NCBI GenBank assembly: GCA_017854795.1
Contig: JAFMHB010000002.1
Span: forward strand, 105,838-149,790
DNA length: 43,953 nt
From: Candidatus Nanopelagicales bacterium
GTDB taxonomy: Bacteria > Actinomycetota > Actinomycetes > S36-B12
Direction: 5' to 3'
Below are positions 41,062 to 43,953 of the stretch, one piece after another; the stretch's first letter is position 1; each line of letters opens with the position of its first letter. Made by a program: the position numbers and the translations under genes. The notes under the pieces were generated by a model. It had not been told where the DNA came from, did not search any database, and saw only the letters and a program-made list of their open reading frames with translations.

Positions 41062-41134
41062 TCCCCCATAGCTCAATTGGCAGAGCATTCGACTGTTAAT
41101 CGAAGGGTTTCTGGTTCGAGTCCAGATGGGGGAG
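41062..41134 (+). tRNA. tRNA-Asn(GTT)
   Basis: A full cloverleaf is present: acceptor TCCCCCA paired with TGGGGGA, D arm GCTC/GAGC, anticodon stem TTCGA/TCGAA around loop CTGTTAA (anticodon GTT), and T arm TCTGG/CCAGA with loop TTCGAGT. The discriminator is G41134; CCA is not encoded. Confidence 0.96.
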
Positions 41135-41138
41135 CGTT

Positions 41139-41232: not shown

Positions 41233-42402
41233 TCAGCGGTTGCGCCCAAGCCGCTCGTGACCGGTAACCCAATCGCCGGCGAGCACAGCCGATGACAGTG
41301 AAATCTCTCCCGCGAGGACGGTCGCTGCTGCGATCTCAGCAAGTTTCTTGGCCGATCCCGTTCCCGTGCAACCAAGAAGTTCCAGGCATTCACGTTGGGT
41401 TGCAAGTCCGGTTCCGCCACCGTGGGTGGCAATGATTACTGAAGGCAAAGTGATGGACCAGTAGTAGTCCCCGTTGTCAAGTACTTGTGTGTAGAGCAAG
41501 CCGCTGTGAGACTCGGCAATGTTGGCAACGTCTTGTCCAGTTGCGATGAACAATGCGGTGAGTCCATTGGCGGCATGGGCTCCGTTGTTGGCCGAACCGG
41601 CCATAAAAGCCCCGGCCTGCGAGATCTGTCGAGCCTTGAACAACTCGTTAGGTGAAACACCAACGAGATCACGCAAGGTTTGCGCCGACGTGGTGACTTC
41701 GGCAATCACTCGCTTTCCGCGCGTGAGCAGCGTATTGATCTGAGAATGTTTTTTATCGGTGTCGATATTTCCGGTGAGGATGAATTCCACTTTGTGTCCA
41801 TAGTTCTCCTTGATCCACACGCAGGCGGCAAGTGTTGCTTTACTTACCATGTTTTGTCCGGCAGCATCACCTGTCGAGTAATCAAAACGAAGATACAAAT
41901 TCGGTCCCACGGCAAACTGCCTAATTCCTTCGAGTTTTCCAACACTGGTCGTGCTTTCAGCTACGGTGCGAATTTTTTCCAATGTTTCGTTGACCCACAG
42001 ACCAAAGTCGCGTGCATCCCGGGCACTGGAAAACAGGAATGCGGGGGAGCGTTGCATGTGATCCTGGGAGATTGTGACGGTTGCGCCGCCTGACTCGTGA
42101 ATCACCCGCATTCCGCGGTTGTAACTTGCTACGAGGGCGCCTTCGGTTGTCGCAAGGGGAACGTAGAACTCGCCGGTAGCATGCTCACCGTTGACGAGAA
42201 GTGGACCTGCGATCCCAATAGGGACTTGCGCTGCCCCAATAAAGTTTTCGATATTCCCGCGGGTGGTTTCCGGATCAAAGCTGAATGCCGCCACGTGGTT
42301 CAAAGCAGTCCCACTATTTTCTTGGAGGAACTCCCGGCGAGTTTGAGCGGCTTGAGCCCCGTGGTCGTTCTCGCGATCGCGTGGGATAGAAATTCGACTC
42401 AT
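41233..42402 (-). CDS. Class I HMG-CoA reductase
   Basis: The 389-residue soluble enzyme reduces HMG-CoA to mevalonate with NADPH, the committed step of the mevalonate route to isoprenoids. Class I motifs are clear: ENFIG (52-56), TTEGALVAS with catalytic Glu87, DTDKK with Lys217/218, GQD with Asp291, THGGGTGLATQ, and a C-terminal GHE with catalytic His382. There is no N-terminal membrane domain. Some positions differ from the usual class I text (DAAGQNM instead of DAMGMNM, and DKKHSQIN instead of DKKPAAIN). ATG 42402 follows AAGGAG. No other mevalonate-pathway gene is visible in this window. Confidence 0.93.
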   Translation of the reverse strand: MSRISIPRDRENDHGAQAAQTRREFLQENSGTALNHVAAFSFDPETTRGNIENFIGAAQVPIGIAGPLLVNGEHATGEFYVPLATTEGALVASYNRGMRVIHESGGATVTISQDHMQRSPAFLFSSARDARDFGLWVNETLEKIRTVAESTTSVGKLEGIRQFAVGPNLYLRFDYSTGDAAGQNMVSKATLAACVWIKENYGHKVEFILTGNIDTDKKHSQINTLLTRGKRVIAEVTTSAQTLRDLVGVSPNELFKARQISQAGAFMAGSANNGAHAANGLTALFIATGQDVANIAESHSGLLYTQVLDNGDYYWSITLPSVIIATHGGGTGLATQRECLELLGCTGTGSAKKLAEIAAATVLAGEISLSSAVLAGDWVTGHERLGRNR

Positions 42403-42486
42403 AAATCATTGCTCCTTATTTAACCGAGACTTGACTTTATCCTGCGAAGTTTTATCGAACGTGAGGGCCGGAACATCTGCGCAGAT

Positions 42487-42498: not shown

Positions 42499-43077
42499 GT
42501 GACCAGTGATCCGATCGCAGTATCTAAATACTCACCCAACACCATCATGTTCATTCGGCACGGTGAAAAGCCAAGTGACTCAGGTGCTCCTTTTGGAGTG
42601 AATCAGCACGGCAAAGAGGATTCCCACGCTCTCTCGGTCCGTGGGTGGCAGCGCGCAGGGGCTTTAACGGGGTTATTTAAGTTAGCGCAACAGTCGGAGT
42701 ACCCGGGCTTGGTCACACCAGCGGTGATTTATGCGACCGCCCCTAATTCGGACTCACACAGTACTCGCGAGTACAACACGGCGCAACCACTCGCGGATGC
42801 CCTTAGCATCGATGTCAATGTTGATTTCCCGCATGGGCACGAGCATCACCTCGCAACTCATATCGTGGGGCAAGGAGACGACACCTTGGTGGTATGGCAT
42901 CACGGGGAACTTCCTGCCGCTATTGGCGAGTTTCCCATTGTGAATAAACAGGACATTCCGAGTGCGTGGCCAGAGGAACGATTCGACTTGGTGTGGGTAC
43001 TCAAGCGTGATGGTGATTCTTCGCAGTACACATTTAGTCAGTTGAATCAGCGGCTCCTTGATGGGGATAAATCGTGA
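42499..43077 (+). CDS. Histidine phosphatase superfamily protein
   Basis: The 192-residue protein has the RHG active-site motif in MFIRHGEKP (Arg20, His21, Gly22), a second conserved Arg in STREYNTAQPLADAL (Arg90), and the second catalytic His in VVWHHGELPAAI (His134/135). These fit a branch 1 histidine phosphatase or phosphoglycerate-mutase-like fold. The substrate is unknown. It is divergent from the HMG-CoA reductase gene, with about 95 bases between them. Confidence 0.82.
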   Translation: MTSDPIAVSKYSPNTIMFIRHGEKPSDSGAPFGVNQHGKEDSHALSVRGWQRAGALTGLFKLAQQSEYPGLVTPAVIYATAPNSDSHSTREYNTAQPLADALSIDVNVDFPHGHEHHLATHIVGQGDDTLVVWHHGELPAAIGEFPIVNKQDIPSAWPEERFDLVWVLKRDGDSSQYTFSQLNQRLLDGDKS

Positions 43078-43333: not shown

Positions 43334-43835
43334 ACAAAGCGCCCCCAGATTCACCCTTGAGTGATATAACACCGTTCATTCTTCGGCGTGGCAACGCTTA
43401 CTCGCGGGGTTTTTGCTCTATAAATAAGGAAATCCCCTCGAAGTATGAGTTCGAGGGGATTTCCATTTAGGTGGCACCTTCGCTGTCCGGTTTCCCAGGG
43501 CCTTCGCGTACCTTGCTGTTTCGCGACGCTCGCTCCGTGTTGCCACGTTGCCAGTTGTTCTTCCACCTTCAGATCTTTATTCCCAACCGACCCCACCAGC
43601 ATGTGGTGTCTCCGGATCTACCCCGGACCAGCTGTCGAACTCTTACCTGACCTTCGCCTTGCGGCTCATTGGGATATTTGTACACCCATTGCAAATAGGC
43701 GCGCAAGTGTTTTTCAAAAATTTTTTAATTATTTTTCATTGTGCTGCATCATCTGAAACTTGTATAACTCCAGTAGTTTTCTTTCACTTCAGTTCAGTCG
43801 AACGGGCAATTGACTTCACGCGAAGAGTGCTCGTA
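43334..43835. other. Non-coding stretch before tRNA-Met
   Basis: About 500 bases with no convincing gene. Short frames exist on both strands, including an 83-codon minus frame at 43351-43602, but none has a start signal or a recognisable product. The region holds the perfect hairpin at 43428-43464 and an A/T-rich run at about 43700-43740. It may be a site of past insertion or an RNA gene I do not recognise. Confidence 0.6.
43428..43464. repeat. Perfect 15-bp inverted repeat
   Basis: GGAAATCCCCTCGAA (43428-43442) pairs perfectly with TTCGAGGGGATTTCC (43450-43464) around a 7-base loop. Neither side has a clean T run, although the minus strand continues T-rich (TTATTTAT). It could be a bidirectional terminator or part of a structured RNA. 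Confidence 0.8.
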
Positions 43836-43876: not shown

Positions 43877-43953
43877 GGGGCGGTAGCTCAGCTGGTTAGA
43901 GCCCCGAACTCATAATTCGGTCGTCGTCGGTTCGAGCCCGACCCGCCCCACCA
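43877..43953 (+). tRNA. tRNA with CAT anticodon, probably elongator tRNA-Met
   Basis: The cloverleaf has acceptor GGGGCGG/CCGCCCC, D arm GCTC/GAGC, anticodon stem CCGAA/TTCGG with loop CTCATAA (anticodon CAT), T arm GTCGG/CCGAC with loop TTCGAGC, discriminator A and an encoded CCA ending at the last base of the window. The paired acceptor start and lack of three G-C pairs next to the anticodon loop rule out initiator tRNA. A lysidine-modified tRNA-Ile cannot be excluded. Confidence 0.93.

Follow-up and report, generated by a model that had tools for sequence, protein, structure and literature searches.

A class I-like HMG-CoA reductase homologue of a Candidatus Nanopelagicales bacterium belongs to a very large bacterial clade very probably uncoupled from isoprenoid synthesis

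The reductase gene and its product

The window analysed here is the whole stretch of 43,953 nucleotides taken from contig JAFMHB010000002.1 of Candidatus Nanopelagicales bacterium (assembly GCA_017854795.1), and our subject is a gene on its minus strand, at 41233-42402, whose 389-residue product resembles hydroxymethylglutaryl-coenzyme A (HMG-CoA) reductase (HMGR). We find that this enzyme belongs to a very large clade, here called F, which is very probably uncoupled from isoprenoid synthesis. Its assignment draws on translation of the open reading frame (ORF), profile searches, alignment and a structure model. The preliminary description of this DNA gave the coordinates correctly and named no strand; the minus-strand frame runs from ATG to TGA, and the plus-strand frame at the same place is riddled with stops. 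A Shine-Dalgarno-like AGGAG (42412-42416, minus strand) ends 9 bases ahead of the ATG.

The protein scores 418.4 bits against Pfam PF00368, the full HMGR domain, where the cut-off is 27. With the NCBIfam model of the class I NADPH-dependent type (TIGR00533) it reaches 357 bits, below the curated equivalog-domain cut-off of 441.8, and with the class II model (TIGR00532) 40.3 bits, below the cut-off of 259.95. By sequence, the nearest proteins of known structure are of class I: the Methanothermococcus enzyme (6hr7) comes first, followed by those of Arabidopsis and human. An AlphaFold2 model built from 41 F sequences has a mean pLDDT (per-residue confidence) of 89.6 and superposes on 6hr7 with Z 44.3 and a root-mean-square deviation of 2.0 over 374 residues (42% identity), and on human 1dqa with Z 43.5 (36% identity); in this predicted structure the protein has the HMGR fold.

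All four catalytic residues had been reported as present, and alignment to the human enzyme bears this out, with E559, K691, D767 and H866 corresponding to E87, K217, D291 and H382. Both motifs singled out in the preliminary description are found as well. The nucleotide-binding motif DAAGQN occupies residues 179-184 (codons at 41851-41868, minus strand; human DAMGMN, 653-658), and the active-site loop DKKHSQIN occupies residues 216-223 (codons at 41734-41757, minus strand; human DKKPAAIN, 690-697). The gene is under purifying selection within its genus: the ratio of nonsynonymous to synonymous substitution rates (dN/dS) is 0.062, 0.054 and 0.073 against G009, G010 and G011, the three computable pairs, two further pairs being saturated. 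Since 10 of the 12 genomes of the genus have a match and dN/dS lies at 0.05-0.07, this is a constrained gene and no chance frame.

Isoprenoid pathways in the host and in other F-bearing genomes

The host genome, 2.36 Mb in 60 draft contigs, is 99.49% complete, and we searched it together with relatives of its order, 57 genomes in all. No mevalonate-pathway gene neighbours the reductase inside the window, as had been noted. HMG-CoA synthase (TIGR01835) was found over its cut-off in none of the 57 genomes, the host included; weak matches occur in 48 of them, none above 44 bits, and the best one in the host, at 27 bits, comes from the FabH protein, whose 365 bits with the fabH model exceed the cut-off of that model. 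The TIGR01835 cut-off is strict: HMG-CoA-synthase-like proteins of other genomes score 105-150 bits, which is still far above the best of the relatives. Mevalonate diphosphate decarboxylase (TIGR01240) was likewise over cut-off in 0 of 57, with weak matches in five genomes and none in the host. The methylerythritol phosphate (MEP) pathway, expected for an actinobacterium, is indicated by profile search, as DXR (TIGR00243) has a match in 55 of the 57 genomes, over cut-off in 52, and scores 338 bits in the host.

These searches leave little of the suggestion that the reductase serves a complete pathway encoded elsewhere in the genome. Neither HMG-CoA synthase nor mevalonate diphosphate decarboxylase was found in the host; mevalonate kinase, phosphomevalonate kinase and isopentenyl diphosphate (IPP) isomerase were not searched individually. 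Allowing for that, and for the chance that parts are absent from a 60-contig draft or fall in runs of N, we regard an ordinary reductase of a hidden mevalonate pathway as very improbable and close to refuted by the synthase and decarboxylase searches, DXR being present, and reject it.

The same question was put to 73 F-bearing genomes, of which 50 belong to loci drawn from the 77 that a motif and alignment scan kept outside the window's own order, and 15 Bacteroidota and 8 Actinomycetota came from profile searches. DXR is over cut-off in 68 of the 73, the five without it being G452, G466, G472, G491 and G493. HMG-CoA synthase is over cut-off in none of the 50 scan genomes, with divergent members at 105-150 bits in G452, G472, G491 (twice) and G492; G466 has a match to neither DXR nor HMG-CoA synthase. 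Besides F, four of the five (G452, G472, G491 and G493) carry another HMGR, which is encoded in a frame of 653-777 residues and bears the class II motif DAMGAN; those of G491, G452 and G493 exceed the class II cut-off. This second enzyme is fused to a mevalonate kinase domain in G491 and G452 (over cut-off) and to a partial one, cut by the contig end, in G493. Next to it lie mevalonate diphosphate decarboxylase in G472 and G493 and IPP isomerase in G452, all over cut-off, and in G491 a protein over the Pfam HMG-CoA synthase cut-offs together with a further GHMP kinase. Genomes that lack DXR and have mevalonate genes thus carry a class II HMGR of their own, and F is nowhere seen as the enzyme of the pathway.

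Two or three F-like-scoring matches occur in 8 of 49 F genomes searched; the second copy of G492, the only one read, is F. At L150 3311-4804 (G491, Woeseiaceae), a second HMG-CoA-synthase-like gene stands beside genes that by eye resemble geranylgeranyl reductase and chlorophyll synthase.

Extent and phylogeny of the F clade

Scanning genome contigs with an alignment and two patterns, one of them T[GA]DAAGQN, confirmed at least 535 stretches as relatives. The best 80 were kept, and among these matches are Actinomycetota, Pseudomonadota, Acidobacteriota, Bacteroidota, Thermodesulfobacteriota and Eremiobacterota. A fair, motif-independent sample is given by 24 rows found with the Pfam profile, one of which lies in the centre genome of the search. 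With this profile, 15 of 396 Actinomycetota genomes match, 14 of them over cut-off, and 9 of those 14 are of F type (the host included). In Bacteroidota, 57 of 247 genomes match, and the 30 best-scoring of 61 match rows comprise 16 F, 5 of a type here called V, and 9 other HMGRs.

In a tree of 75 rows, F forms one clade of 56 rows with a support of 93, which becomes 97 (starred) when three divergent actinobacterial rows are left out; it stands apart from the human and Arabidopsis enzymes, the Methanothermococcus enzyme, the Streptomyces mevalonate type and class II. Together with the residue tables below, this upholds the proposal that the gene branches separately from the well-studied enzymes of class I. 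The window protein falls in a clade of seven rows (100, starred) made up of its own genus and the sister genus g11, nested amid Pseudomonadota, Acidobacteriota and other Actinomycetota, while further Actinomycetota rows are scattered elsewhere. The tree mixes phyla in a way that suggests past transfer between phyla, with old residence in the genus. An F reductase from L124, a metagenome record titled Bifidobacterium breve, groups with that of G403 (99, starred).

An N-terminal extension comprising the first 110-130 residues is seen in most of the Bacteroidota F rows L173-L188 and in L040 (G047). The three extensions tested, two from Bacteroidota and one from G047, are Pfam PF25653 (HMG-CoA_red_N) placed ahead of the reductase, so part of the clade is already known to Pfam curators; the window protein is too short to hold this domain. 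One of the three also weakly matches the model of a C-glycoside deglycosidase beta subunit (E 0.007, below cut-off).

Active-site residues

According to PMC7503714, the HMG pocket consists of Ser684, Asp690, Lys691, Lys692, Asp767, Glu559, Lys735, Asn755, Leu853 and His866, and the NADPH contacts include Ser626, Arg627, Phe628, Asp653, Met655, Gly656, Met657, Asn658 and Val805. Set against these lists, F keeps eight of the ten pocket contacts and lacks two, and several of the NADPH contacts are altered. Counts below are over 114 distinct F sequences in human numbering. E559, S565, R568, R590, D690, K691, K692, H752, N755 and D767 are kept in all 114, and H866 in 112, the other two rows ending early. 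Lysine 735, present in 5/5 class I comparators, occurs in 0/114 F sequences. Position 684, serine in every comparator, is S in 72, E in 29, A in 10, T in 2 and D in 1. In the nucleotide site, M655 is Ala and M657 is Gln in all 114, and R627, an arginine in all five comparators, is Ser in 68, Arg in 32, Lys in 5 and other residues in the rest. P693 is mostly His (78). The 24 profile-found rows agree: K735 is present in none, Q657 in all 24, and position 684 is E in 16, A in 6 and S in 2.

The window protein departs from the class I pattern at pocket positions 684, where it has threonine (T210), and 735, where the lysine is absent, and at NADPH-site positions 626, 627, 628, 655 and 657, which read T, S, V, A and Q; V805 is replaced by His and K722 by Gly. 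Positions 655 and 657 vary in the Streptomyces mevalonate type too.

Comparison with known reductases

Like the class I enzymes (human HMGCR, Arabidopsis HMG1 and Methanothermococcus 6hr7), the window protein has the same fold, the Glu-Lys-Asp-His set and the CoA-site residues Ser565, Asn567 and Arg568. It differs from them in lacking K735, in threonine for S684, in DAAGQN for DAMGMN and in serine for R627, as well as in scoring below the TIGR00533 cut-off and having no mevalonate genes around it. The HMGR of the Streptomyces mevalonate cluster (L145, with L139 of the same type) is likewise actinobacterial and shows 32-38% identity in Streptomyces plasmid matches. Unlike the window gene, L145 sits in a full mvk-mvaD-pmk-fni-HMGR-mvaS cluster, and both L145 and L139 retain K735 and S684, have DASGHN and form a clade separate from F.

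Type V, known from Vibrio and some Bacteroidota, comes nearer. Its six rows (L143, L189, L190, L191, L196 and L197; motif DA[SA]GQN) form a clade of their own whose place relative to F is open in the tree. They share Gln657 (6/6) and the missing K735 (6/6) with F and carry the annotation HMG-CoA reductase, and the 11 kb read of the one Vibrio plasmid contained no mevalonate gene. They differ in overall sequence (about 40-43% identity) and in carrying Glu or Asp at 684 in 6/6, which would make binding of a carboxylate there harder still, and Ser at 655 in 4/6. Three type V genomes (G526, G565 and G659) have a further, lower-scoring HMGR.

The class II HMGR of Pseudomonas mevalonii acts outside biosynthesis, linked to HMG-CoA lyase. 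It has the same superfamily fold (1qay, Z 28.2, 22% identity), but it is class II in sequence, unlike the window protein, and no lyase was found beside F genes. Plasmid pMl1 of Sinorhizobium meliloti has a gene carrying the annotation HMG-CoA reductase (L144 6001-7245) amid genes for indolepyruvate oxidoreductase, acyl-CoA carboxylase subunits and MmgE/PrpD; its catalytic-loop Asp-Lys-Lys appears altered in the alignment, where its row is long and hard to place, and it may have another function or be inactive.

Older work by Boucher and Doolittle reportedly treated lateral transfer of HMGR. Our search of the literature on orphan or non-pathway HMGRs found no work on the F clade, most subscription journals lying outside its reach. 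The accessible part of a 2026 preprint on bacterial HMGRs, whose network starts from a Borrelia query, contains no mention of the clade that we saw (PMC13370337); a 2026 survey discusses partial pathways and, in the part available, no HMGR alone (PMC13001223), and prokaryote-like second HMGRs are described for sponges in PMC4784904. One F protein, from Alteromonas macleodii, is already named hydroxymethylglutaryl-CoA reductase in a RefSeq plasmid record (L142); further F enzymes are those of Hydrocarboniphaga, Paraglaciecola and Hymenobacter.

Occurrence among relatives and genomic context

The reductase gene is matched in 14 of the 57 related genomes. Within the genus it is found in 10 of 12, the host included, the two without it (G003 and G005) being 84% and 70% complete; in G001 a run of N breaks the copy, and in G006 a contig end does. 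Matches in the rest of the family number 2 of 21, both in sister genus g11, and in the rest of the order 2 of 24, among them G047 with two copies. GC content is 0.545 against 0.526 for the window, and GC at third codon positions (GC3) is 0.563 against 0.503-0.56 in five housekeeping genes. Neither stands out, and a recent gain marked by foreign base composition is rejected. Taken together, distribution and composition suggest that the gene is an old resident of this genus.

On the right of dnaG (where read) and a 167-residue gene, the fixed frame of the locus in the genus ends in tRNA-Asn (window 41062-41135, plus strand), the conserved left edge of a variable stretch. In the window, 97 bases separate this tRNA from the 3' end of the reductase gene, and tRNA-Met (43877-43953, plus strand) forms the right edge; the distance between the two tRNAs is 2.7 kb here and about 13.5 kb in G010 (L030), where the reductase also lies inside. 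Directly after tRNA-Asn stands the reductase in the host (G000) and G009, an amino-acid-permease-like gene (by eye) in G005 and G008, and other genes elsewhere; in G007 the reductase lies 2 kb further away. Acquisition by transfer next to tRNA-Asn, which had been put forward as one possible origin, is thus borne out in part: the content after the tRNA differs within the genus and the tree mixes phyla, but the gene looks old in the genus (10/12, in one clade with g11) and its composition is unremarkable. An attachment site at the 3' end of tRNA-Asn is rejected, no second copy of at least 13 bases having been found on either strand of the window.

That the gene is a decayed or selfish passenger of this variable stretch, with no cellular function, is hardly credible. 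Its surroundings beside tRNA genes do vary and its distribution outside the genus is patchy (2/21 and 2/24), but dN/dS of 0.054-0.073 rejects decay and the catalytic residues are invariant in 114 distinct sequences.

Of the 10 gene-bearing genomes of the genus, 8 have a gene for a class I glutamine amidotransferase immediately ahead of the reductase, usually with a 4-base overlap (L030 7034-7759, L032 8906-9559, L034 7250-7903, L035 5190-6119 and L037 3929-4573, among others). PF00117 is over cut-off in both proteins tested, and the gene of G011 is split over two frames. No match to the amidotransferase was found anywhere in the host genome or G009, and G014, G015, G023 and G031 have a 42-45% identical amidotransferase without the reductase. 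As the pair is broken in all of these, the pairing is a lineage habit and no requirement.

The divergent neighbour in the window (42499-43077, plus strand) is a histidine-phosphatase-like ORF, recognised by eye from an RHG-like start and without a Pfam match. A similar gene is divergent to the reductase in G009 (L028 7024-7602) and to the amidotransferase-reductase pair in G006 (L034 6628-7185), and a similar reading frame comes after tRNA-Asn in G011. Beyond it lies a conserved non-coding element of about 246 bases, a candidate RNA (43425-43670, minus strand), which recurs at L028 6076-6324, L030 5887-6135, L032 10524-10772 (minus strand), L029 483-729 and L034 3652-3891. It is 80-96% identical in five genus members and partial in a sixth. 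Its predicted fold has a z-score of -4.0, with 0 of 200 shuffles as good, and contains a long terminal hairpin; 9 of 73 predicted pairs show a two-sided change in one or more of six sequences. The element has no Rfam match.

Neighbours across the clade were surveyed with ORFs chosen by composition score in 93 loci. This score missed the reductase itself in two of 95 loci (L041, with a run of N in the gene, and L121). No single conserved partner was found over the 93 loci. Varying neighbours include TetR regulators, thiolase, CoA-transferase, enoyl-CoA hydratase, AMP-dependent ligases, wax ester synthase/DGAT and amidohydrolase, which by our impression lean towards acyl-CoA and lipid metabolism. 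Wax ester synthase/DGAT is seen in the flanks of 7 of the 93 loci (three of the seven checked with Pfam; the loci include short ones, and three occur in duplicate). It adjoins the reductase in L107, L110 and L115, all from Gammaproteobacteria (the first two Woeseiaceae), and lies about 1 kb away in L081 and L098. We regard this association as a lead, no more.

Function of the F reductase

F very probably acts outside the mevalonate pathway. Beyond this, the reading that we favour, if with limited confidence, is that F is an acyl-CoA reductase using NAD(P)H, with a role outside isoprenoid synthesis and a changed substrate; for the substrate taken by itself, the chance that it differs from HMG-CoA is about even or slightly better. 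The enzyme would keep chemistry of the HMGR kind, reducing an acyl-CoA thioester in two NAD(P)H-dependent steps, by way of a bound hemithioacetal and an aldehyde, to a primary alcohol, or catalysing the reverse. Less certainly, the acyl group may be not HMG from HMG-CoA synthase but that of another, perhaps less acidic, hydroxylated or branched acyl-CoA. An altered acyl substrate is proposed because F lacks the HMG-contacting lysine K735 and often has Glu or Ala in place of Ser684. In this species the enzyme may also be less strict in its choice of cofactor, because the NADPH-site arginine (human R627) is serine.

A more specific version, which we hold only tentatively, is that F has a separate function as an HMGR-fold reductase turning hydroxylated or branched acyl-CoA into primary alcohols for lipid or ester synthesis. 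If so, the wax ester synthase/DGAT and acyl-CoA-ligase neighbours of some loci would be its partners.

Several points weigh against a changed substrate, or against the breadth claimed for it. An arginine stands at human column 732, three columns before K735, in 80 of 114 F sequences; in the window protein it is R258, predicted to lie in the same helix (251-268) as the K735 position, and could replace the salt bridge of that lysine, in which case HMG-CoA would still fit. The register at K735 is uncertain, one alignment placing Ser or Ala opposite it and a second a gap, with Lys absent in both. Nor does the absence of K735 by itself exclude HMG-CoA as substrate, since class II HMGRs act on it with a different set of residues. 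Because R627 is still Arg in 32 of 114, the cofactor argument covers only part of the clade. The 114 distinct sequences derive from 118 rows with duplicates (L033/L047, L032/L063, L036/L048 and L113/L179) and are compared with just five class I enzymes, those of human, Arabidopsis and Methanothermococcus and two of the Streptomyces type. DAAGQN occurs in all 94 F rows other than the profile-found ones partly by construction, since these came largely from the scan, one of whose patterns contained the motif; the Bacteroidota rows are the best-scoring of those matched; and the tree, built by a quick search, leaves 21 of its 72 inner branches open and has long outgroup branches.

One alternative is a true HMGR that makes mevalonate (as a secreted product, a signal or a precursor) from HMG-CoA of leucine breakdown in place of HMG-CoA synthase. 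The host has a leucine-type cluster that would yield HMG-CoA, with HMG-CoA lyase (374 bits, cut-off 246) and carboxyltransferase, and by eye biotin carboxylase and acyl-CoA dehydrogenase; the catalytic residues, R590 and K692 are kept, and the arginine at column 732 may stand in for K735. The changes in the HMG pocket speak against it, as does the distribution of HMG-CoA lyase, which is uncoupled from the reductase: it is over cut-off in 6 of the 14 relatives with the gene and in 19 of the 43 without. Four genomes that are 90-97% complete (G007, G008, G010 and G011) have the reductase without the lyase, other genes of the leucine route not having been searched there. We consider this alternative unlikely.

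Less probable again is a catabolic mevalonate dehydrogenase, in which case mevalonate would be taken up and oxidised with CoA to HMG-CoA for cleavage by HMG-CoA lyase. Pseudomonas mevalonii oxidises mevalonate in this way, its HMG-CoA being split by the lyase. The serine at R627 in the host protein would relax the demand for NADPH, the host has the lyase, and at L119 4669-5946 (Zhongshania) the F reductase is flanked by a symporter-like gene (by eye), which ends 45 bases ahead of it, and by a family III CoA-transferase that follows after 33 bases; this hints at an organic acid as a possible origin of the substrate there. However, the P. mevalonii enzyme is class II, whereas the window protein remains at 40.3 bits against the class II cut-off of 259.95, and no HMG-CoA lyase homologue was found in the ORFs of the 95 loci (blastp, E 1e-5). 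With this, and no lyase association among the 57 relatives (6/14 versus 19/43), a catabolic system tied to the lyase is rejected. As HMG-CoA lyase is unlinked, we rank an acyl-CoA reductase of changed substrate first, mevalonate made from leucine second and mevalonate catabolism third.

Implications

F proteins are already annotated, and a new function for them has a fair chance. Annotation as HMG-CoA reductase leads readers to infer a mevalonate pathway or a partial one. The clade comprises hundreds of bacterial proteins, mostly in organisms that use the MEP pathway, where the enzyme would have another job or receive HMG-CoA from elsewhere, and surveys that take HMGR as a marker of the mevalonate pathway would need correction. 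To our knowledge, no substrate other than HMG-CoA has been described for the HMGR fold, and one reaction is known for it to date; a second substrate would therefore be a real enzymological finding.

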